Positions 3,205 to 21,598 of a stretch of DNA of 23,644 bases are shown here, piece after piece (the stretch's first letter is position 1; the number at the start of each line of letters is the position of its first letter). This DNA is from a virus. The notes beneath the pieces are model-generated. The model ran no database searches. It was not told where the DNA came from and saw only the letters and a program-made list of their open reading frames with translations. The position numbers were made by a program, and so were the translations under genes. The stretch spans positions 1-23,644 of the IMG/VR virus record IMGVR_UViG_3300045996_000993; one strand, given 5' to 3'.

Positions 3205-6200
3205 ATGTCTATGGTGCTGCAAGAAATTACGATGGCGGCACCGGACGTGATCCGCATTGAAATTCGCGACCCCAAGATCGTGCGCGGGCGCTACCAGCAA
3301 ATTGCACCCCAACATTCGGCGGGTGGCCCTGCTGTTTCTATTCCGGAGTTTGGCGGGAATTACGGCTGGGTTATTGGTTGGGACGATGATTGGGCCAAGG
3401 AGAGCGATAGCGGGCCTGACCGTTACCTTTATCGCCCCAACATCAGGACAGCTGCGCAGTGGAATACGGCTAACCCTAGCGGAATTGGTGGGCGCACGAT
3501 AACGGGTGTTTATCGCAATCACGAAGCCTACGATTACGGGCAAGGGTTCCGCGCTGGTGTAGGGGACCACAAGAATATCTCGATGGTCCACTACATCTAT
3601 CTGAAATTATCTAGCAATCTCACGGCAGGTACTTACACTATCAATTGGCCTGTTAACGCGGTACGGAGCAAGGCTGGCGGAACCTATGCCCTGTCGAACG
3701 AGCTGGCCTCCACGCCGATTGTGTTTGTCTTTAATGACAAAGTTACCCGTTGTTCCTCAATTAAGAGCACGGCGGTTGGCCACCATCCGAATGACGTCCT
3801 GAAGTTGGCTTACCTTTGTTGTCGCCTGACTGAAGGTCCCAATGAAGGCGCAGTAAATTTTATGGCCGGTGGTTATGGGTTAACGCAGTTTCAACTGCTC
3901 AACTCCAACAAGGAACCGTTGTACTACGGGTCTATCGCTCTGCGCTTAGGCGCAACCGAAGTGGACGCCGGATCGGGTTACGTCGAGTTGAGCCATCCCA
4001 CGGAGGCGAATTGGTACAGCGGCTGGACGACGCGACCGGATGGTGTAGCGCTGGCCTCGCAGACGACTAAGTGGCGCATCACGGCAGCGAACAACAACGC
4101 AACTTGCACCTTCACCACCGACAATGCTACTGGACTTACCGAGGGAATGCGGGTGCGAGCCTACAGTCCGAGTTGGTATCAGCTTCACAATGCGTCCCAG
4201 TATTACATCGTCCGCAACTTGTCGGGCTTGACTTTTAATCTCGAATACCACAACGGTCCCAGCGACCCGCTTAATGGCACGCTGGCCAACAGCAGCACAT
4301 GGCCAGTGTTCCAAGCGGTGAAGGGCTATGGTGAGTATTCCGGCCACTCCTTCATTGCTGCGTTGCATGAGACCAACCTCGTCGGCACCAATGTCTACGG
4401 CCTCGACTATAGCTCCTTTGACGACGATAATGGTACTGAATCAATTTATTATCTCCATATTCCCGGTATGGGCATCAGCGACCCATTTCATATCGACTAT
4501 ACGGCACATTATCGCACCGCACGCAATGCCGCTGCCGGGAATTACCACCAGTGGAATGGCTGCGAGGTGGATGGACGCTTCGGTTATACGCGCCCGGCGA
4601 CATTCAGGCAGGGGGTGAACAACGTCAATATTACGCGGTCCAAACTTCCAAAATTGTGGACTAATTATGATGGTGGATTATCCAACTACGGCGCGATTCC
4701 GGTAAGCTCGCGCGTACAAATTACCCGTGTCCATGATGCGCCTTGGGATACAGGTGTTTCCATCCCGTCGAACGCTTTTGGCGGTTACAAAGACGCCGGA
4801 GATTGGGACGACTCCATCGGAAGCAGTCCCTCCCACTTGCCGGGTCCCTACTCGATGCTGGATGTGTGGGAGATGCTGCCAGAGGCGGGCCGCGCTCAGG
4901 ACTTCGGCATTCCGAAGGTCCACGAAATGCGGGGCAACAGCTTCTACGCTGGCACCGACGGCATTGGCGATCTGATCCACGCGGCGCTCTGGTATGCGGA
5001 CTTTTACCGCACGACGCAGAAGCCGAATGGCAGCATCGTTAGCGGCCTTACTTATGGCGAGAAAAACGCGGCTAACACTGGCATAGCGGATCAGGCTTGG
5101 TGTTGGCCGGAAGTCGGAACTAGTTGGCACCCGGCCAAGTCGGGCGGCAAGGATATTGGTATCTCCACTTATGGTGAAGACCACATAGCGACTCTGGAGT
5201 ATTGCGGGCTGGCCGGAAAAATATCTGCCATTTTTACCAAGCTGGGATTCACGGCGGCGGCGACAGTCTGGCGCGACAGTGCGCAGGCGGCGTGGGATTG
5301 GGCCAATCCTATTCAGGTGGACGACGCCGGGCAATTCGATGCCTTCTATAACCCGCTGATGGATTTGGTTACCGGCCCGTCGTGGACGACGCAACAGAGA
5401 GCCGACGTCAAAAACGTTATGAAGACCTACCATGGCGTGTTGGCGCGGGAGCATGCCGCCATCGGCATGTTCCGTTGCACCGGTAATACGGCCTACGAGA
5501 CGATTGCGTTGGCGCGTTACTACCCCGTCAATACCGTGGATTTCGGTGGTGAAGGCGGCTGGGTGCCGCAGGAGTATCTCCTGTCGGATGGTGCCAATAC
5601 CGCCGCCAAGGATTACTTCCGTACCTTGTGGATAGAGGCGGCAGAGGTTTTTCCGCTAATTCGTTCGGAGGCCGACTGCTCATTCCGCCGCATTCGACGC
5701 GGGCTAATGCACATCTGGGGTGGACAGGGATTTTGGACGATCTTTGAGGGTACGGCGCTAATTCGCGGCTGGTATCATTCCAGCGATCCCACCTTTAAGA
5801 ACAGATGCCTCGCGGCAGTGCAGGCAGGCGTCAATTGGCTCGATGGGGCCAATTTTAATGGCTTCGCTTACACGACCGGCATCGGCCCGCGCAATGTGCA
5901 ATGCACGCTTGACGTTGATCACAAAAATGGTCCACCGTTGGCGCAGCAGCCCATCGGCAAAACCATTTACGGCCACGGACACGTTGGATCAACGCCAGGT
6001 GGTGGTTTACAATTCCAATTCGGTGCTGGTAGTTCGCTTGTCGCTATTGTAGAATACCCTTTAACCGATCTTGACGCCACCTGGCCCGACGAACAGCGCG
6101 AATGGTATCCATGGCGCAATTCGCAAGGTCCGCTAGAATTTCTGCCCCAGAACTGGTGGGCCATCAGCATGAACGAGTACACCGTTACACAGACGATTGA

Positions 6201-6330
6201 CGGTAAGTTCGTGATGACAGCATTTCTCCAGGGCCACGACGGGCTGGGTATTGCGCCGGATGATCCACCAGTCGCGCCGAAGCCATCATATATTCGCTCG
6301 CCTTATCGCCGCAGAGGCGGATTAGTCTAG
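3205..6330 (+). CDS. Large tailspike with glycoside hydrolase family 9-like module
   Basis: A 1041-residue protein. Residues about 413-475 resemble the Ig-like domain that precedes GH9 catalytic modules: YYLHIPGMGISDPFHI, then NYHQWNG and TRPATF. Residues 526-536 read GGYKDAGDWDD, the GH9 DAGD motif with its catalytic-base Asp (D530 and D533). TDGIGDLIHAALWYADF at about 590 corresponds to the GH9 GIPD-LDE helix. WLDGANFNGFAYTTGIG at 878 corresponds to the GH9 C-terminal GxNPxxxSFVTGxG motif, and MNEY at 989-992 supplies E991 as the candidate acid. The first 400 residues are beta-rich and unassigned. The likely job is to degrade host capsule or exopolysaccharide during adsorption; the substrate is unknown. 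The first of three nearby ATGs (3205, 3211, 3232) was taken. Confidence 0.75.
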   Translation: MSMVLQEITMAAPDVIRIEIRDPKIVRGRYQQIAPQHSAGGPAVSIPEFGGNYGWVIGWDDDWAKESDSGPDRYLYRPNIRTAAQWNTANPSGIGGRTITGVYRNHEAYDYGQGFRAGVGDHKNISMVHYIYLKLSSNLTAGTYTINWPVNAVRSKAGGTYALSNELASTPIVFVFNDKVTRCSSIKSTAVGHHPNDVLKLAYLCCRLTEGPNEGAVNFMAGGYGLTQFQLLNSNKEPLYYGSIALRLGATEVDAGSGYVELSHPTEANWYSGWTTRPDGVALASQTTKWRITAANNNATCTFTTDNATGLTEGMRVRAYSPSWYQLHNASQYYIVRNLSGLTFNLEYHNGPSDPLNGTLANSSTWPVFQAVKGYGEYSGHSFIAALHETNLVGTNVYGLDYSSFDDDNGTESIYYLHIPGMGISDPFHIDYTAHYRTARNAAAGNYHQWNGCEVDGRFGYTRPATFRQGVNNVNITRSKLPKLWTNYDGGLSNYGAIPVSSRVQITRVHDAPWDTGVSIPSNAFGGYKDAGDWDDSIGSSPSHLPGPYSMLDVWEMLPEAGRAQDFGIPKVHEMRGNSFYAGTDGIGDLIHAALWYADFYRTTQKPNGSIVSGLTYGEKNAANTGIADQAWCWPEVGTSWHPAKSGGKDIGISTYGEDHIATLEYCGLAGKISAIFTKLGFTAAATVWRDSAQAAWDWANPIQVDDAGQFDAFYNPLMDLVTGPSWTTQQRADVKNVMKTYHGVLAREHAAIGMFRCTGNTAYETIALARYYPVNTVDFGGEGGWVPQEYLLSDGANTAAKDYFRTLWIEAAEVFPLIRSEADCSFRRIRRGLMHIWGGQGFWTIFEGTALIRGWYHSSDPTFKNRCLAAVQAGVNWLDGANFNGFAYTTGIGPRNVQCTLDVDHKNGPPLAQQPIGKTIYGHGHVGSTPGGGLQFQFGAGSSLVAIVEYPLTDLDATWPDEQREWYPWRNSQGPLEFLPQNWWAISMNEYTVTQTIDGKFVMTAFLQGHDGLGIAPDDPPVAPKPSYIRSPYRRRGGLV

Positions 6331-13999: not shown

Positions 14000-15099
14000 C
14001 CGTATACAAGTTTAATGAAGGCGGCGTAGAGTACGAAGTCGACGCGCCCGACTTCGACACGGCGCAGAAGGACCTAAAACGCTTCCGCCAGGATGAGCAC
14101 ACGGCGGCGAGCCAAAAGCAGTTCCAGGAAGCCCCGATATGGGCCAAGCCATTCTCCGCCATGGGCGATGTTGCGATGCGTGGAATAGACGTTGCATCGG
14201 CGGGCACAGTTCCGGCATTGGTGGATAAGTTAACCGGCACCGATGAAGCGACAATGAACGCCGAGACGGCCAGGCGAAACATGGGGTGGGCCGGAGTCCC
14301 GCTAGACATTGGCATGGCGGCGCGCTATATTCCGAGCGCGATTGGGCGAGTAGCCAGATGGGGTGGAGGCCCCGCTGCCAGAAAGGTGGTTCAGGGAACC
14401 GTGGGCGCGGCAGAAGGTGGACTTTACGGAGGCGTTGACGCCGCAACTCATGGAAAGGATATATCTGAAGGAGGCATGCTTGGCGCGGCTGGCGGAGCTA
14501 TTGGCCAAGCTGCGGGCGATCTGTTCAACAAGGGAGTAAAATGGTATCGAGGCATCGATGATTCGGTACCCAGATCTTCAATTATGAGAGTTCCGGCGGG
14601 GCAAACGCCGACACGGGTGCAACGTGCCGACATAGCGCAGAACCAAGCCTTGAATGCATCTGCCGGTAAAGGAGTGGCAGCAGAGCAAAGAGCATTGCAA
14701 GATGCCTTCCGCGACATAGGGGGCGCTAATATGTCGTCGTTTCAGCCCGGTGCACAACAAGCCGCGCTGAAGAAAATTTACGAAGGGGATCCGGTCACTA
14801 GGTTCACCAGAGGCGCGGCCAATGTGCTGGAGAACCGAATAGTTGGTGCCGGACTTGGCACTACTCTGGGGTTTACTACGGGAAGTCCTGCGGCGATGAT
14901 GGGCGCTTTAGCGGCCACCGAAATTGGCGCTCAGGGGGCGAAAAGATTGTCAGCGGGCGGAACCAAGGAAGCAGTAGAGGATCTCCGTCGCCTGTTGGCT
15001 GGCCGTAGAAAATTCGAAGGTCCGATGACACCAATCGCTAAGAGAAGACTGGGTAAGGGAACAACGCGTGGGTTGTTGGACTACTACAACGAGGAGTAA
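13996..15099 (+). CDS. Gly/Ala-rich internal virion / ejection-type protein
   Basis: The last gene of the + strand block, 367 residues, translated from an ATGA overlap. An N-terminal module (MTVYKFNEGGVEYEVDAPD) looks like the small beta-hairpin found at the N-termini of other phage ejection proteins. It is followed by a charged helix and long Gly/Ala-rich segments (AAEGGLYGGVDAATHG, GGMLGAAGGAIGQAAG, LGTTLGFTTGSPAAMMGALA) that could insert into or cross membranes. The C-terminus is strongly basic. Its last 16 bases overlap the end of the helicase gene on the other strand, with no clear terminator between them. Confidence 0.62.
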   Translation: MTVYKFNEGGVEYEVDAPDFDTAQKDLKRFRQDEHTAASQKQFQEAPIWAKPFSAMGDVAMRGIDVASAGTVPALVDKLTGTDEATMNAETARRNMGWAGVPLDIGMAARYIPSAIGRVARWGGGPAARKVVQGTVGAAEGGLYGGVDAATHGKDISEGGMLGAAGGAIGQAAGDLFNKGVKWYRGIDDSVPRSSIMRVPAGQTPTRVQRADIAQNQALNASAGKGVAAEQRALQDAFRDIGGANMSSFQPGAQQAALKKIYEGDPVTRFTRGAANVLENRIVGAGLGTTLGFTTGSPAAMMGALAATEIGAQGAKRLSAGGTKEAVEDLRRLLAGRRKFEGPMTPIAKRRLGKGTTRGLLDYYNEE

Positions 15100-16481
15100 T
15101 TTTTCCCGAAGTGTTGAAATACTGCTTGCGCTATGCTTTCTTTTGCTTGCAACGCCATCGTTATCTTACGGTCCAATTGGGTACCCCAAAGGTCAATGTA
15201 CAAACAGTGTGAAGCAGTCTGGCCATGGCGATGCATTCGATCTTCTATTTGGCTTCGGTCGTCCAGAGAGTACGAATTCTCAGCGAATAACATTGTACTG
15301 CATCTATCGGTCGGCGAAGCGCCGCCTAACAAGGTATGACCGTACTTTCCCGCTTTGGACTGCAATAGGATTACCCGGCAGTCACTGTGATTGTTGAATT
15401 TTTCCTTCTCCCACTCGATCTCTTCCGGCCGCATGTTGCCGCGAATGATCGCGGGGTTGGATTCGCTCAGCGTGTCGAGCAGTATGTTCAGCGTATGGCG
15501 GTGAACATATGGGATAATTATCTTGCTGGTGGATTCTTCCACTATCTCCTTGACCAGCTGGAACCTGGGATTTTGGTCGGGCGGAACTAAATCCTCGGTG
15601 GTCCCATCTTCCTTGATGATGAATCCGGATTGGATCTGCGCCAATTTGATGTACTTCGTGATGAAGGCGTCGACCGACACGTTCTCTATCTCATTGAGCC
15701 AGATTACGAAGTCGTCCTCCATACTCTGATACATTGACCGCAGCTTGGGCGTCAGTTCGTATTGCCGCGAAGTGTACATTTTGGGCGGGAGGTCGGTCCA
15801 CTCCGCCTTGGAGGCCCGGAATACGTACTTATCTATCTTGGCGGCGAGCAATTCTTCATTCTGGGTGCCCACCACCTTCTTAGCTTTGAACCCGCCCATC
15901 TTACAGAACGTGGTCTTGAAGGGAAAGTATTTGTCGGTGATCGCCCCGATGAATTTCATCTGTGCCCAAAGATCATGAGGTCCTTGGGTGACGGGCTTGC
16001 CCGACAGGATGCGCCGAATCTTGAACAGCGGCGCTAGGGTAAGCGCGGCCTTGGTCTGCTGGCTGTTATAAGTCTTGATTTGGATTGACTCGTCGAGGAC
16101 GATCATTGCGCCGCGCCCTTGAACGAATTTGGTGATGTAATTTCGCGTCTCTTCCTTGCGGATCGCCTCGTAGTTGACTATGAGAACCGGTGGGCGCTCG
16201 AATTTTCTCTTCAGGAAATTGTCGTTATTCCAAGCGCTCCCCGATATGAAGATATAGGGGTCCACGTCGATGTTATGCTTGTTGATCTCTTCAACCCACC
16301 CCGCTTTGAAGGAGTTGGGGCAGATCACCACTAAGCGAGTAACTCGCCCATCGTCCACCGCTCGCACGAATTCAGCCAATGCCGTAAGGGTCTTGCCTAA
16401 CCCCATTTCCATGAAGTAAGCAAACCCCGGTATCCCATTGGCTTCCTTCAGCGCTTTGCGCTGGACGGTCAAGAGGTCCAC
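15084..16481 (-). CDS. SNF2-like DEAD/DEAH superfamily 2 helicase
   Basis: A 465-residue protein from GTG 16481. Motif I is EMGLGKT (K30), motif II is LDES (D130-E131) followed by IQIKT, motif III is SGKP (S160-P163), and motif VI is QIEDRMHRHGQ (residues 411-421). The order and spacing are those of short phage SNF2-type ATPases that translocate on duplex DNA. GTG was chosen because GAGGG lies five bases upstream and a Q-motif-like DLLTVQRKAL follows at once. The longer frame (ATG 16568) adds low-complexity residues and overlaps a better ORF. Motif III has Lys where SNF2 proteins usually have Thr (SGTP). It is probably involved in replication or recombination. Confidence 0.85.
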   Translation of the reverse strand: MDLLTVQRKALKEANGIPGFAYFMEMGLGKTLTALAEFVRAVDDGRVTRLVVICPNSFKAGWVEEINKHNIDVDPYIFISGSAWNNDNFLKRKFERPPVLIVNYEAIRKEETRNYITKFVQGRGAMIVLDESIQIKTYNSQQTKAALTLAPLFKIRRILSGKPVTQGPHDLWAQMKFIGAITDKYFPFKTTFCKMGGFKAKKVVGTQNEELLAAKIDKYVFRASKAEWTDLPPKMYTSRQYELTPKLRSMYQSMEDDFVIWLNEIENVSVDAFITKYIKLAQIQSGFIIKEDGTTEDLVPPDQNPRFQLVKEIVEESTSKIIIPYVHRHTLNILLDTLSESNPAIIRGNMRPEEIEWEKEKFNNHSDCRVILLQSKAGKYGHTLLGGASPTDRCSTMLFAENSYSLDDRSQIEDRMHRHGQTASHCLYIDLWGTQLDRKITMALQAKESIAQAVFQHFGKNYSSL

Positions 16482-16645
16482 GGATCCCTCATCTTCAGGG
16501 GTTGCGCACCGTCCTGACGGCGTATCTCCACTTCGTTCCGAATGTGCTGTTGAATTCGTTTGATCCATGATGTGTTGTACACCTTCTCCAACCATAGGCA
16601 ATCATCCTCATTTAGCAGCAGAGTAACTTTCCTTGTCTTGCTCAT
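16469..16645 (-). CDS. Hidden 58-residue ORF between the MazG-like gene and the helicase
   Basis: ATG 16645 to TGA 16469. The product begins MSKTRKVTLLLNEDDCLWLE and continues with YNTSWIKRIQQHIRNEVEIR and KMRDPWTS. Its composition is that of a real soluble helical protein, while the helicase frame in the same place is low complexity. It overlaps the end of the MazG-like gene by 38 bases and the helicase GTG by 13 bases, similar to other overlaps on this strand. AAGG is present upstream of the ATG. No family recognised. It may be a small regulator or a partner of either neighbour. Confidence 0.6.
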   Translation of the reverse strand: MSKTRKVTLLLNEDDCLWLEKVYNTSWIKRIQQHIRNEVEIRRQDGAQPLKMRDPWTS

Positions 16646-16931
16646 GTTGCACGCCTTGCATTCTCAATGCGGCGTAGGCCAGGAATGAGAAGTTGGCCTG
16701 ATCCGCTAGTTCTATCAGCGAGTTTTCGTCGAACTTGTCGACTATCAGCTGCTCTTCAAACTCCGTAATCTCGCAGCGGAGTAGATCCATGATGGAGGGG
16801 AGGGATTCTTTGGTCGGCGTCTCCTTGTGAGAGTTCTTGTCCAGCTTCATGATCATGGTTCTGAAGAATCCATGCAACATGTCCTCGTACATCTTCAATG
16901 ACGGCGGAACATTAACTACCATTAGAGTCAT
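16608..16931 (-). CDS. MazG-like nucleotide pyrophosphohydrolase (candidate MazZ)
   Basis: A 107-residue all-helical protein. It contains the MazG signature ExxE-(16)-ExxD as EITE (54-57) and ELAD (74-77), followed by N80, within LLRCEITEFEEQLIV and LIELADQANFSFLAYAALR. These acidic residues bind the Mg ions in MazG-type all-alpha NTP pyrophosphatases. In aminoadenine phages the MazG homologue MazZ turns dGTP into dGMP, the substrate of PurZ. The gene directly follows purZ with a 20-base overlap, and GAGGA lies eight bases before ATG 16931, so the two are probably co-translated. Substrate specificity for dGTP is inference. A general phage MazG-like protein is the alternative. Confidence 0.68.
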   Translation of the reverse strand: MTLMVVNVPPSLKMYEDMLHGFFRTMIMKLDKNSHKETPTKESLPSIMDLLRCEITEFEEQLIVDKFDENSLIELADQANFSFLAYAALRMQGVQHEQDKESYSAAK

Positions 16932-17976
16932 AAATCATGTCCTCCTCTCTGCGCACATCGTTTATGGTTGGACCGAATGACATTAAGATTTCGAACCTCA
17001 TATTCGCTCGATGCCCAAACTCTTTTATATCGTCCAACAAGGACCGCTGGTCGGTTCTGGACAGATAATCCATGTGGCTGATAAACACTATATCGGGGTG
17101 ATTGGCGTGGCAGGCATCGCTGAATTGATCCATGGAGAATGTGGCAACGCGCCGCACCCGCTTCGTGACCGTGGTCAGCTCGGGTTCCCTGTCAAGGCTG
17201 TCCCAATCTGTCTCCACTTGGTCATTGTACCAATCCCCACTGGAATACCCGTCCACGTTACCCACCCGAATTGGATATGTTCGGATGGCCATGTAAGTAC
17301 GCATCAAATGGGCAGGAGCGATGCGAGCGTCGGCCAATCCTTGCATCACGGTGCATTCGCGGCTGGTGACTTTGGGGTAAAAGTGAGAGTTGATCCCCAA
17401 GCTGAACCCCTGCGCGACTTCCATAAAATAGGCGTTGCGCTCCGGTTTCAGCCGGTGATCTTGTATTACTACATTGGGCGCGACGTTGCCAAGCGATCTT
17501 CTAGCAATCGCGGATGGTACTCGCATTACCTTGCGGGCCAACGCGGCTCCGGTTCCGCTCCGGGTCCCAGCTACTTCTGCTATAGAACCAGACTCTTCGG
17601 CCTTTTTGTCCTCGTCCGTCACGATGGCTGCATTGGGGTGCACAAAGATGGGTATATTGGGAAACTCGTCAGCTTCTTGCCTAAGAACCTCGCGGTCAAT
17701 CACCGCGCCAGCCGACAGGTACGTTCGCATCCGAATGTTGTGGAGCGAAAGATGGACACTGAAGGTAGGCAGCTGCTTCAGCACTATCTTCCGCCCCTCG
17801 AAATAGGAAGTGTGTCCGCTGTTCGGGCCGCCGCTGTAAATCGCGCCGCCAAAATACTGTACATTGTCCCGCTTGGTCACTTGCTCGGCCAAGTAGGAAC
17901 TCAGAAGTCCCTTTCCAGTCGAGCCAAATTGACCATCCACGACGCAATGCACGCCACGGGGTCTGAACAGCTGCAT
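16912..17976 (-). CDS. purZ: PurZ: N6-succino-2-amino-2'-deoxyadenylate synthase (PurA homologue)
   Basis: A 354-residue protein, shorter than PurA (about 430). The P-loop at residues 18-23 is GSTGKG, where PurA has GDEGKG, so the catalytic base Asp13 (E. coli numbering) is Ser19. This replacement is the known mark of PurZ. PurA features that are kept include GGPNSGHT (H55), GTRSGTGAAL, EVAQGFSL, then YPKVTS, and TVTKRVRRV. PurZ condenses dGMP with aspartate using ATP or dATP, and host PurB then yields 2-amino-dAMP (dZMP). ATG 17976 is supported by GAGG six bases upstream and lies one base after the previous stop. The longer frame to 18084 overlaps that gene and was rejected. Confidence 0.92.
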   Translation of the reverse strand: MQLFRPRGVHCVVDGQFGSTGKGLLSSYLAEQVTKRDNVQYFGGAIYSGGPNSGHTSYFEGRKIVLKQLPTFSVHLSLHNIRMRTYLSAGAVIDREVLRQEADEFPNIPIFVHPNAAIVTDEDKKAEESGSIAEVAGTRSGTGAALARKVMRVPSAIARRSLGNVAPNVVIQDHRLKPERNAYFMEVAQGFSLGINSHFYPKVTSRECTVMQGLADARIAPAHLMRTYMAIRTYPIRVGNVDGYSSGDWYNDQVETDWDSLDREPELTTVTKRVRRVATFSMDQFSDACHANHPDIVFISHMDYLSRTDQRSLLDDIKEFGHRANMRFEILMSFGPTINDVRREEDMIYDSNGS

Positions 17977-17977
17977 G

Positions 17978-18292
17978 TTATTCCTCTTGTTGTATCTGCA
18001 CGGGGGTAAGCATCGCAGCGAGCGCGATGTAACCAGCTGCATCTGTGTAGTTGTCAGGCGAATAACCATAGACCGACCGGGCAATCTTCACCATAGTCAT
18101 CATTTGGGCTACGTCGTAGGGGCGCAACTTTTCTTCTCTCCGCATGGTGTAAGCATGGGCTATGTAGTTACTCCACATTTCGGCGATCATACGGAACGAA
18201 TCTTCGGTGTGGCCGTGTTGTCTGTGCCGTTCTCGAATTGTGTGGCTAGCTTCCGCCAGGACGTTTTCCGAGATAGTGAGGGGATCTGTCAT
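17978..18292 (-). CDS. DUF6378-like all-alpha protein (MazG-superfamily candidate)
   Basis: A 104-residue protein. The pattern E14-A, HGHTEDSF (26-33), AEMWSNYI, DVAQMMTMVKIAR (60-72) and DNYTDAAGYIALA (81-92) matches the small phage family I know as DUF6378. That family is considered related to all-alpha NTP pyrophosphatases, with conserved Glu, Lys and Asp residues lining the site. ATG 18292 overlaps the upstream TGA (ATGA), with AAGGAC in front. The stop is one base from the purZ ATG. It is a second candidate for the dGTP-to-dGMP step feeding PurZ, or another nucleotide-pool enzyme. The family link is from memory. Confidence 0.68.
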   Translation of the reverse strand: MTDPLTISENVLAEASHTIRERHRQHGHTEDSFRMIAEMWSNYIAHAYTMRREEKLRPYDVAQMMTMVKIARSVYGYSPDNYTDAAGYIALAAMLTPVQIQQEE

Positions 18293-18687
18293 TTTAGTCC
18301 TTTTATTGAGTAGTAGTACAACACCAATTGACGGTAGAACGGGGCCTCCGTGGTTGTAACCGAGAAGCACTCGGTGCGTTGGATCTTGGATTGGGGCTTG
18401 TGGAAGTAGAATATTCCGTCCTTGTAGCCAATCATGACAGGGATAACGTGGCCCCCGTCCTTTGCTACTTCGGATATTCGGTGCAGCTCGACTGCTTGTC
18501 TCGGCGTCGGTCCAAACATGTCGTGCTGGATGATCTTCACTTCGGCACAAAATACCGGCAGCCCGACCGGGATGAGAATCATGTCGAAAATACCCACGGC
18601 ATATTGGTCTTCGATGCGGCGGGCATAACCCCCGTGCTCCTTCATCGAATTGACTATGTACCGCTTGACGTTGGACTCAGACTTCAT
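18289..18687 (-). CDS. VRR-NUC-type PD-(D/E)xK nuclease
   Basis: A 132-residue protein. The core is GIFDMILIPVGLPVFCAEVK with D35, E49 and K51 forming D-(13)-ExK, then PTPRQAVELHRI with Q64, as in VRR-NUC domains of phages. Such stand-alone domains cut branched DNA (Holliday-junction-like) and need a divalent metal. The start ATG 18687 overlaps the TGA of the upstream gene, and the end overlaps the DUF6378-like start, so the three are probably one mRNA. The longer frame to 18792 overlaps the upstream gene and was not used. The probable role is recombination or processing of replication intermediates. Confidence 0.82.
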   Translation of the reverse strand: MKSESNVKRYIVNSMKEHGGYARRIEDQYAVGIFDMILIPVGLPVFCAEVKIIQHDMFGPTPRQAVELHRISEVAKDGGHVIPVMIGYKDGIFYFHKPQSKIQRTECFSVTTTEAPFYRQLVLYYYSIKGLK

Positions 18688-18899
18688 TCCACCACACCGG
18701 CCTGTCTTGCCCACCATTGCGTAACCACGAACTGACGGTTTCCGTGTTCGTCCGGTTCGCCCATAGCGACAGTCTGTGACTTGGGCAACCACACCTCTTC
18801 CTTCGGCCCCATCGTGGGGTGGATAAGGTAGGCTTTGGCCGTCGTGACCTCAACTTTCGCCTCGAGTTCAACTGTAGGGTCTCCATCCCTGTATGGCAT
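18684..18899 (-). CDS. 71-residue small conserved phage protein
   Basis: ATG 18899 to TGA 18684. It contains VELEAKVEVTTAKAYLI, GPKEEVWLPKSQ, GNRQFVVTQWWARQAG. The KAYLI-x-EVWLPKSQ pattern and the closing V-x-WWA-x-QAG recur in small proteins of phage replication regions, often beside nucleases. Their function is unknown. The ATG overlaps the -10 box of the promoter just upstream (18898-18903), so either the mRNA comes from an earlier start or initiation differs; the N-terminus is therefore uncertain. It is translationally coupled to the VRR-NUC gene. The overlapping frame starting at 18919 is Arg-rich and looks like a shadow. Confidence 0.65.
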   Translation of the reverse strand: MPYRDGDPTVELEAKVEVTTAKAYLIHPTMGPKEEVWLPKSQTVAMGEPDEHGNRQFVVTQWWARQAGVVE

Positions 18900-18950
18900 C
18901 GTACCACGCCCCCGTCCACCTGTCAAGGTGTCTTTCTATTGTTCTGAATA
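18898..18950 (-). promoter_or_regulatory. Sigma70-type promoter A with conserved upstream element
   Basis: On the - strand: -35 TTGACA (18926-18921), a 17-base spacer ending in TGG (extended -10), and -10 TACGAT (18903-18898). The upstream stretch to about 18950 shares AAAGA and a TCAGAA/TCTGAA-like element with the other two copies. It sits directly after an intrinsic terminator. Its -10 overlaps the start codon of the 71-residue gene. Confidence 0.7.
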
Positions 18951-18987: not shown

Positions 18988-19533
18988 TTACGCACGCCTG
19001 CGACGACGTGCAAACCAAGCGAGGCCGAGCGCCCCGAGAGGAACAGCCAATGCCATACCGGGAACTGGCACTAAGCTCGCGGTGGTTAGATTGCCGCCGT
19101 AACCTGCAGTTCCGCCGCCGATGCCGCTAATCGTTAGATAATATCTGCCGGGGGCCAAGGTGGCGCTTCCGGCAAGGATTTGGCACCCGGTTGGATTTTG
19201 CTGGCAAGGCACCGCTTGCACTGCGGTATTTTGCTCGAAGTCATCCGCATCGCCTAGAACTGCTCCAACCTGCCGCCACAACTGTCCGGTGAAGTTGGTG
19301 ATGAAGTCAGAGGGCGCCGTGTAGACATTAGTAGCGCTTGCGTATGTCACACTTAGCGGACCACCACCAACGATTTGGAAGGAGTAAAAGTCGGCGAATA
19401 GTCCCCCTCCAACACTGTTATTGAAGTTGCCAGTCGAAGACACTGGGTTGATGCCCAGATCTCGAATTAGAGCAGCCTGCGCGGGTAGAACCAACGCCGC
19501 GAGTGCGACGGTGGCAAGTAGCATCTTTTTCAT
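18988..19533 (-). CDS. Exported FxDxF-like PEP-CTERM-type protein
   Basis: A 181-residue protein. Residues 1-20 are a classic signal peptide (MKKMLLATVALAALVLPAQA). F46-D48-Y50-F52 (FADFYSF) resembles the FxDxF motif. Residues 127-150 (LAPGRYYLTISGIGG, then YGGNL) match the C-terminal half of that family. Residues 155-181 are the sorting tail: VPVPG, a hydrophobic segment to 175, then RRRRRA. In bacteria such proteins are processed by exosortases and sent to the cell surface. C110 and C117 could form a disulfide. ATG 19533 lies two bases after the polymerase stop, with GAGG in that gene's last codons, and a terminator follows. This location is unusual for a phage. Confidence 0.82.
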   Translation of the reverse strand: MKKMLLATVALAALVLPAQAALIRDLGINPVSSTGNFNNSVGGGLFADFYSFQIVGGGPLSVTYASATNVYTAPSDFITNFTGQLWRQVGAVLGDADDFEQNTAVQAVPCQQNPTGCQILAGSATLAPGRYYLTISGIGGGTAGYGGNLTTASLVPVPGMALAVPLGALGLAWFARRRRRA

Positions 19534-19535
19534 TT

Positions 19536-21329
19536 TTAATCCTCATACTTGTCTAGCTTCTCACCATAAGAAGCCCTCGCCCAATTTGCACCACTACCAA
19601 GCCCGAACGGAATGGGCACCGCCAGTTCGAGTTCCTCCGCGACGTGTTCGATGGCGTGAATCAAGTCGCTAACATCGTGTCCTGGGTTCCGTTGCCACAG
19701 CAAGCTATCGTGAATGGTAAGCAGGACCTGTAAGTCATTGGGGTAGGCGTCCTCATATTTACACGCGGCGAGCAGGCACATCTTCAGGTGTTCCCCGCCC
19801 ACGTTCTGGATGATGCGCGATACAGCTCTATAGGCGAACTGTGGATTATCGCAGTAGGCCCGCCGCCCAAGGAGGGTCTTGACATAGCCCCTCCTCTTAA
19901 ATACCTGGACCGCCGTGTCCTGAAACACCTTGATATCTGGGAAGGCGTCAGTTAGAAAAGTCTTGTGGGCAGCCCGCGCCTTTTCCAGGGGCCAACGCAT
20001 GTGCCCCGCCAAGGTGGGTGGAGACATCATAGTTAGCATTCCCATCGACATTCGCTTGGCGGTGTCGCGGTCTAAGTTGAGGATGTCGGACGCTCTGTCA
20101 TGAATATCCATAGTTCCACGTCGGTATCCTTCGACGAGGATGGGGTCGCCTGAATAATGAGTGAAGAGTCTTGGCTCTTGTTGTTTAGCATCAGCCTCCT
20201 CGATGGCGAATCCTTCGTCAGGAACAACAAGCCTTCGAACCACTCGGCCAACCTCAATATTCCTTTTTGGGAAAGCTTGTAGGTTAGGCTCTGAACAGGA
20301 AAACCTGACGCCTGCCACTCCGTAATCATCTGATTTAGACTGATTAAGGATTGGGTGGACCCTTCCTTTGATGTTGTGGGTGTCGATGAGGGGGGTAATG
20401 AAGCTGTCTCTTGCTTTTTCGAGCCGCCTGACTGCCAGTATGGCTTGCCCGATTTCGTTGGTTTCGAGCCACTTTTCGGTGAACGAGAATGCGCCCCCGT
20501 CCGTTTTGGCGAACCTTTCTTCGGTGTATCCGTTGGCACGGTATAATCCCTCCACTGCTTTGGGTGAACGAACGTTGAAGCCAGGCACGAATACCTTGCT
20601 GGCCTCTGCGATGGCCGCCGCGACGTCCGGAATTATCCGCTCTGCGTATTCGGGATCGATTCGTAATCCCCGACCATGAATCCGTGCAACGTATGGCAAG
20701 AGATCGCACTCCAATTGCCATGGTTTCCGCAACCCGTCTCCATCGAGGATGGGTTGTTGTTTCGCCCACAATTCCAGCGTAGATATACCATCGCCCGTGG
20801 CGTAGTCGACAACGAGGGGGTGATCTCCTTCAATCCGCCAGAAATTACCGATCTGTTTTCGGTCGGGTAGTCCACCAAACCTACGGGCAATCTCAGCGTA
20901 TAGATCGGACCCGCGCTTAGGTGTAACACCGCGACGCAGACATGAATCATCGAGGCCGTATCCTTGCGTTATGTCGCTGATGATCGCTTCATTGATCATC
21001 GTATCTTCTAGCGGGCTAGTAAGCCTAACACCATGCCTAAGGCAAATACGCAAATCAAAGCCCAAATTATGACCAACAGTTCTAAACGATTGTCTTCCAC
21101 GGTCCCGAAAATTTCGACCAAGTTCCGCTTCAAATTGTTCCACATTGGGGATATTGCCTCCTGCCTCGTGGCGGACTGGCACGTATATTGAATACTCGTC
21201 ATTCGTGATGACGTAACCGCAGATCCTATCCTTCACCGTCAACCCGGTGGTTTCAGTATCAAATGCGATTGGCTTAGGGCAGCTGCGAACGATGTCGAGC
21301 GCCAACTGTGGGTCTACTAGTTGTTTCAT
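19536..21329 (-). CDS. dpoZ: Family A DNA polymerase with 3'-5' exonuclease (DpoZ-like)
   Basis: A 597-residue protein. The exonuclease domain has DTE (D24, E26), HNLGFD (N88, D92) and YATGD (Y176, D180). The polymerase domain has motif A around D380 (EADAKQQEPRLF), motif B around K425 (AKRMSMGMLTMMS) and motif C IHDSLLW (D541). Motif B differs from Pol I: the Phe762 position is Met429 and Tyr766 is Thr433. In motif C, Ser replaces the usual Glu. ATG 21329 overlaps the HNH stop (ATGA). With purZ nearby, this is probably the DpoZ polymerase associated with aminoadenine phages. The Z preference itself is inferred, not read from sequence. Confidence 0.85.
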   Translation of the reverse strand: MKQLVDPQLALDIVRSCPKPIAFDTETTGLTVKDRICGYVITNDEYSIYVPVRHEAGGNIPNVEQFEAELGRNFRDRGRQSFRTVGHNLGFDLRICLRHGVRLTSPLEDTMINEAIISDITQGYGLDDSCLRRGVTPKRGSDLYAEIARRFGGLPDRKQIGNFWRIEGDHPLVVDYATGDGISTLELWAKQQPILDGDGLRKPWQLECDLLPYVARIHGRGLRIDPEYAERIIPDVAAAIAEASKVFVPGFNVRSPKAVEGLYRANGYTEERFAKTDGGAFSFTEKWLETNEIGQAILAVRRLEKARDSFITPLIDTHNIKGRVHPILNQSKSDDYGVAGVRFSCSEPNLQAFPKRNIEVGRVVRRLVVPDEGFAIEEADAKQQEPRLFTHYSGDPILVEGYRRGTMDIHDRASDILNLDRDTAKRMSMGMLTMMSPPTLAGHMRWPLEKARAAHKTFLTDAFPDIKVFQDTAVQVFKRRGYVKTLLGRRAYCDNPQFAYRAVSRIIQNVGGEHLKMCLLAACKYEDAYPNDLQVLLTIHDSLLWQRNPGHDVSDLIHAIEHVAEELELAVPIPFGLGSGANWARASYGEKLDKYED

Positions 21330-21598
21330 TCCGTATAGTGCCGTATTATATGGCAATTGGCGCACAGAACGTCACATTGGGACATGTATTTGAGTAGTGT
21401 CTTCCAACTACTTGTCCTAACCATGTGCGGGACCCTTACTTTCTTGCCATTAGGAAGTTTTTTGATGCTATCGGGGTCCTTATGGTGGAATTGCAGCACC
21501 CGGTGATCCCGGATGCCACAATCCATGCACAACAGAGTTTTCTTGTACTCCGTGAATTGTATCGCTCTGTTGCGTCTATTTGCCTTGTAGTCGTACAC
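21326..21598 (-). CDS. HNH endonuclease
   Basis: A 90-residue protein from GTG 21598, which overlaps the upstream TAG. Zinc ligands are C24-C27 (CMDC) and C79-C82 (CANC). The HNH core is H38-H39 (FHHKDPDS), N81 and H83/H87 (NCHIIRH). This is a minimal stand-alone HNH domain of the size of free-standing homing or packaging-associated nucleases. It overlaps genes on both sides, including the polymerase start, so it is either long resident or coupled to the unit. Possible roles are a homing endonuclease or a replication nuclease; the sequence does not separate these. Confidence 0.82.
   Translation of the reverse strand: MYDYKANRRNRAIQFTEYKKTLLCMDCGIRDHRVLQFHHKDPDSIKKLPNGKKVRVPHMVRTSSWKTLLKYMSQCDVLCANCHIIRHYTE

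Follow-up and report, generated by a model that had tools for sequence, protein, structure and literature searches.

In other purZ phages dATP is removed by DatZ, which was reported earlier as a part of the Z-cluster, and further enzymes lead to the modified nucleotide. For relatives of the genes considered here it has been established that MazZ makes dGMP, that PurZ makes dSMP, and that host enzymes finish dZTP (PMC8342488, PMC12884076). The described systems vary around this core. Cyanophage S-2L has purZ, mazZ (of the MazZ-1 kind), datZ, and PrimPol, and relies on DatZ in the absence of a family-A polymerase. Phages phiVC8 and SH-Ab 15497 have a PurZ with a catalytic Ser, a MazG-like partner, DatZ and, next to purZ, a family-A polymerase with an exonuclease domain (phiVC8-like DpoZ). 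The PurZ0 phages Wayne, Ghobes, and Greenhouse have no DatZ; they carry a PurA-like synthetase with Ser, dutZ/dmtZ/DUF5664, and a polymerase without insertion 2 that has Phe at the helix-O site. The module of Ochrobactrum phage vB_OspP_OH (OH; Wolominvirus) was read in its isolation paper as nucleotide metabolism genes (PMC7139368). Czernecki and colleagues treated OH as a Z-cluster phage with MazZ-2 (PMC8342488), and thus this kind of system is already known.

We analyzed a 23,644-nucleotide stretch of viral DNA (IMG/VR record IMGVR_UViG_3300045996_000993, hereafter the window), which is a fragment of a genome. Its minus strand encodes a module with the gene order of OH from polymerase to helicase, including MazZ-2 and DUF6378. 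From the sequence we consider it likely that the window derives from a Wolominvirus-like podophage with a true purZ, whose DNA carries Z (2-aminoadenine) wholly or largely instead of A. The order of transcription is polymerase, PEP-CTERM protein, gp29-like protein, nuclease, DUF6378 protein, PurZ, MazZ-2-like protein, and SNF2 helicase, and the features of the region are as follows.

21326 to 21598, minus strand: HNH endonuclease of 90 aa, directly upstream of the polymerase gene (phrog_2255, 2e-17).
19536 to 21329, minus strand: family-A DNA polymerase with a 3'-5' exonuclease domain (NF038380, 7pbk, motif alignment, tree).
18988 to 19533, minus strand: secreted PEP-CTERM-type protein (FxDxF family, NCBIfam 3e-10, below cut-off).
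18684 to 18926, minus strand: 80-aa protein, homologue of OH gp29 (phrog_8389, 1e-9; tblastn to OH gp29).
18289 to 18687, minus strand: small (VRR-type) nuclease, homologue of OH gp30, which is annotated as a putative nuclease (tblastn 35% identity, 5e-11; weak match to phrog_93 endonuclease).
17978 to 18292, minus strand: DUF6378 protein of about 104 aa (PF19905, 4.6e-22), whose ATG overlaps the preceding stop.
16912 to 17976, minus strand: purZ, for a predicted 354-aa PurZ-type succino-2-amino-deoxyadenylate synthetase with Ser19 and His55 (NF038379, phrog_1211, 6fm1, tree, residue map).
16608 to 16931, minus strand: putative MazZ-2-like pyrophosphohydrolase of 107 aa, overlapping the purZ 3' end (synteny with OH gp33).
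16602 to 16607, minus strand: site of datZ/gp34 in OH and other relatives; the gap between the MazZ-2 and helicase ORFs is just 6 nt, and no datZ is present.
15084 to 16601, minus strand: SNF2-type helicase at the end of the module, start codon uncertain (PF00176, 8e-23; phrog_62, 2e-91; OH gp36, 48% identity).

Dozens of metagenomic contigs carry the same module. Compared with the window proteins, the OH PurZ is 54% identical and the OH polymerase, which likewise lacks insertions 2 and 3, is 61% identical. The two loci differ in that gp34 and DatZ, both lacking from the window, stand between MazZ and the helicase in OH, and in that the PEP-CTERM gene of the window is absent from the OH order. 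This gene sits between the polymerase gene and the purZ module, and a complete relative (G006) encodes a different PEP-CTERM protein in the same place (PF07589, 1.4e-5; L039, 12681-13331, plus strand); to our knowledge, exosortase substrates are unusual in phages. A scan of the early region for promoters and terminators returned counts near chance. For a 1041-aa protein encoded among the tail genes of the window (3205-6330, plus strand), searches of Pfam, PHROGs, NCBIfam, and the PDB gave no match at the thresholds applied.

The original prediction, made from the sequence, had placed a PurZ gene at 16912-17976. The open reading frame is present there on the minus strand, with its ATG at 17976, from which residues are numbered here; a plus-strand gene was ruled out, as the translation of that strand is no gene. 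The protein begins MQLFRPRGVHCVVDGQFGSTGKG, and its P-loop stretch reads VDGQFGSTGKG. In the alignment and residue map Ser19 occupies the column of the catalytic Asp13 of E. coli PurA and His55 aligns with the catalytic His41, both as predicted. The other PurA motifs that were expected to remain are conserved as well (Gly18, Lys22, Gly23, Asn52, Gly54, Thr56, Arg152, Gln189, Thr271, Arg275, and Arg276). The chain is short, at 354 aa versus 432 aa for E. coli PurA, and so falls within the PurZ range (about 340-390 aa, compared with about 430 for E. coli PurA). Most contacts to dGMP and ATP in the S-2L PurZ structure, taken from the list in PMC8342488, are kept (Ser19, Asn52, Gly54, His55, Thr56, Thr138, Arg152, Gln189, Arg237, Val238, Thr268-Thr271, and Arg275), so that the window protein has the substrate-pocket residues in common with S-2L as well as the PurZ family. 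The contact positions that differ in the clade of the window protein are A136/G137 and K202/V203. The protein also has Asp14, Thr20, and Thr268, which are specific to PurZ.

Searches with the whole protein agreed with these residues. Its best solved relative was the phiVC8 PurZ (6fm1; phmmer E 8e-48; 36% identical), and the S-2L PurZ (7odx) was matched at 1e-37. The top NCBIfam match was the PurZ model NF038379 (E 7e-64, 216 bits), with 125 bits for the competing PRK04293 and 79 bits for purA. Pfam returned adenylosuccinate synthetase (1e-21), and PHROGs returned phrog_1211, named 2-aminooxy adenylosuccinate synthetase (4e-55). The 300-bit cut-off of the PurZ model, a naming threshold that reflects no biological feature, is passed by S-2L (350 bits) and phiVC8 (397 bits) and missed by the window protein and by OH (241 bits); since both miss it, the cut-off was evidently set without this lineage. 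A maximum-likelihood tree of PurA, PurZ0, and PurZ proteins, with few outgroup sequences on long branches, placed the window protein inside PurZ (support 100/99) together with OH and metagenomic phages, and a 98-row tree agreed. The phylogeny that had been suggested as a check on the prediction, with PurA as the contrary grouping, thus came out for PurZ.

One element of the prediction has to be narrowed. The Asp-to-Ser change, along with short length, had been taken as a mark that distinguishes PurZ from PurA; it is present, but it is not exclusive to PurZ, as PurZ0 and a synthetase on a Sinorhizobium plasmid also have it. For this reason the assignment draws on the complete sequence, the tree, and the neighboring genes together. 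The Sinorhizobium protein could suggest that the window enzyme is likewise a PurA-like adenylosuccinate synthetase serving ordinary adenine nucleotides, with an incidental Ser, and OH gp32 was indeed first annotated as an adenylosuccinate synthase of nucleotide salvage (PMC7139368). However, the Sinorhizobium medicae protein scored higher on a PurA-like model, whereas the window protein scored clearly higher on the PurZ model, and the tree position, Asp14/Thr20/Thr268, and synteny with Z modules all speak against such a role, which we regard as very improbable. A PurA in disguise was excluded by the tree, the residues, and synteny. PurZ0 was excluded by the tree, in which the window protein groups with PurZ; the PurZ0 partner genes (dutZ/dmtZ/DUF5664) were not seen in the module, and the polymerase of the PurZ0 phages, with its Phe, is unrelated to that of the window. 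Together, the tree, most of the substrate-contact residues, the MazZ-2-like and family-A polymerase neighbors, and the OH-like gene order support the PurZ reading, and on this sequence evidence we consider the gene to be a true purZ that adds a member to an established family.

As in other Z-clusters, a mazZ candidate lies beside purZ, here in the MazZ-2-like ORF that overlaps it, in contrast to the MazZ-1 of S-2L. The protein alone had no match in Pfam or PHROGs, and hhalign of MazZ-2 against MazZ-1 gave none. Four acidic residues (E54, E57, E74, and D77) are invariant across 19 relatives. An AF2 model (pLDDT 87) was nearest to the MazG-like protein AF_0060 (2p06; TM 0.61-0.72, E 0.1-0.3) and also resembled other MazG/HisE-type proteins, and a profile of the family matched 2p06 at E 0.004. 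Synteny, the invariant acidic residues, and the moderate match of the model underlie the MazZ-2 assignment, and the evidence for the fold is moderate.

The DUF6378 gene is conserved next to purZ: a profile matched at 26 of the 27 DatZ-less loci of the present type, and the remaining one has another ORF at the same place. Comparisons with MazG and DUF5664 by hhalign and Foldseek yielded no usable matches, and we tentatively consider the protein a candidate nucleotide-pool enzyme. DUF6378 proteins (phrog_474 and phrog_1167) are labeled "phosphofructokinase" both by PHROGs and in the RefSeq annotation of phages; they are small four-helix proteins, and the label is almost certainly a misannotation.

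No DatZ was detected in the window by searches with PF12917, the OH DatZ, and a ten-sequence DatZ profile, and the same searches were negative in ten relatives, all of them contigs of 42-45 kb (G002, G004, G006, G009, and G011-G016). All positive controls (OH, L009, and three other DatZ-bearing contigs) were found, and a DatZ hidden elsewhere in the window or in these contigs was rejected. In five of the ten contigs (G004, G006, G011, G012, and G016) the ends carry direct repeats of 69-127 bp, in keeping with complete genomes; the repeat of OH is 55 bp. Among the 87 scorable PurZ loci in the tree, 52 have DatZ and 35 lack it, a distribution that needs five changes, four of them forced by well-supported branches alone. 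When three DatZ-less genomes were compared with other DatZ-less contigs and four DatZ-bearing genomes, no replacement gene was shared by all the DatZ-less sequences while missing from every DatZ-bearing genome.

Without DatZ, the exclusion of A must come from selectivity of the polymerase or exonuclease or from another pool enzyme, or else be incomplete. Incomplete exclusion would mean that dZTP is made and that both A and Z are incorporated, leaving the DNA only partly substituted. The genome-wide absence of DatZ in complete relatives fits this outcome, as does a polymerase without insertions 2 and 3 of phiVC8 DpoZ, and the S-2L Z-cluster, when expressed in E. coli, brought about partial conversion (PMC8342488). 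Yet PurZ and MazZ-2 have remained intact through repeated changes in DatZ, and the polymerase is substituted at the same site as known DpoZ proteins, which points to some other means of keeping up selectivity. We consider partial substitution unlikely.

Unlike S-2L, the window has a family-A polymerase and no DatZ. The best named family of this polymerase is DpoZ (NF038380; 3.8e-73, 247 bits, below the 500-bit cut-off), and its best solved relative is the phiVC8 enzyme (7pbk; 1.7e-44). It lacks two of the three insertions of phiVC8 DpoZ (2 and 3), has Thr433 in helix O in place of Phe459 (Ser in OH), Met in place of Leu455, and Ser in motif 6 in place of Gly548; because of these differences we did not file it as a phiVC8-like DpoZ. 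Elsewhere this helix-O residue is a strictly conserved Tyr, and Phe in its place is the only substitution that the two DpoZ subfamilies have in common (PMC8599892).

This position varied with purZ. Thr or Ser was found in 70 of 81 PurZ-linked polymerases (67 with Thr and 3 with Ser, all without the insertions), and the others had Phe with both insertions (9) or Tyr (2). When the polymerase, instead of PurZ, served as the seed, the search recovered five loci with Thr, all with PurZ, 73 with Tyr, all without it, and one with Asn and no PurZ; both samples are best matches to this lineage, so the draws are not independent. In a polymerase tree the phiVC8-type enzymes (support 100), the Tyr-type phage polymerases (99), and the Thr/Ser group (100) were separate, and the last included the contig with Asn and one Tyr member at its base. 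These groupings support a third PurZ-linked type of polymerase, defined by sequence, besides the two DpoZ subfamilies. The contig with Asn (L134, IMGVR_UViG_3300026121_000018) encodes a polymerase 40% identical to that of the window, and no PurZ was found anywhere on its 41 kb. The position of this polymerase within the Thr/Ser clade points to a possible loss of PurZ, or another base modification may be present.

Z carries its 2-amino group on the minor-groove side, and PolA has its helix-O Tyr near the nascent pair, which makes a smaller residue at this site a plausible adaptation. We infer that the small Thr or Ser in helix O is adapted to Z:T pairs. Alternatively, the polymerase might use A in the ordinary way, with Thr/Ser as the product of drift within the lineage and without bearing on Z. 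In favor of drift, most of the Thr/Ser loci form a single clade, which means that few independent events lie behind the link to PurZ, and one PurZ locus of that clade (L130) has Tyr. Against it, no other position is altered in both of the known DpoZ subfamilies (PMC8599892); the residue is otherwise Tyr in all 73 PurZ-free loci in which it was sampled and in the reference polymerases, and the clade member without PurZ has Asn and not Thr. We regard drift as possible, if somewhat doubtful. It is our tentative proposal, which we hold to be quite possible, that a third, independently adapted Thr/Ser polymerase, alone or together with DUF6378, keeps A out effectively enough for DatZ to have been lost more than once.

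The Z reading is favored by PurZ being the best assignment by family model, solved structure, and tree, with MazZ-2 and the polymerase adjacent. It is weakened by the absence of DatZ, by a polymerase without two insertions and the Phe of dZTP-preferring DpoZ proteins, and by PurZ and DpoZ scores below the curated NCBIfam cut-offs. On balance a Z-containing genome, as originally predicted, is likely. From the membership in PurZ, the neighborhood, and the relatives, we infer the enzyme activities and the presence of Z in virion DNA: MazZ-2 would convert dGTP to dGMP, PurZ would form dSMP from dGMP and aspartate with ATP or dATP, host PurB and host kinases would finish dZTP, and the phage polymerase would place Z opposite T. 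In a phage without DatZ, dATP would most likely be kept out by polymerase/exonuclease selectivity and a second pool enzyme, with DUF6378 as the first candidate. The resistance to restriction that had been predicted would presumably follow. Neither the missing DatZ nor the departure of the polymerase from the described DpoZ types had formed part of the original prediction.

In the openly accessible literature we found no description of a DatZ-less module with a third polymerase type. With such modules, Z-DNA would no longer be confined to a few isolates but would reach into a large phage lineage, most of it uncultured. They also offer natural variation for the question of how a polymerase comes to favor Z above A, as the helix-O position singled out by the structural study of phiVC8 DpoZ is Thr or Ser in a separate PurZ-linked clade. 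Relatives with and without DatZ allow a direct test of the contribution of dATP removal, and polymerases of the Thr/Ser kind could serve in making Z-DNA.

Two plasmid loci with PurA-like synthetases were also observed. On Sinorhizobium medicae plasmid pMl5 (CP140912; L053, 2995-5057) the synthetase has QFGSEGKG, with Ser at the catalytic site, and the next gene is weakly dCTP-deaminase-like (PF22769, 2e-4), an arrangement that recalls purZ0 and dutZ in Arthrobacter phages; a direct BLASTP comparison with the Greenhouse protein matched over just 37 residues. On Rhizobium leguminosarum plasmid pCC283b_4 (L054, 2363-6993) a synthetase with GDEAKG is clustered with folE, purB, queE, and IMP dehydrogenase, which looks like purine- or deazapurine-related biosynthesis.
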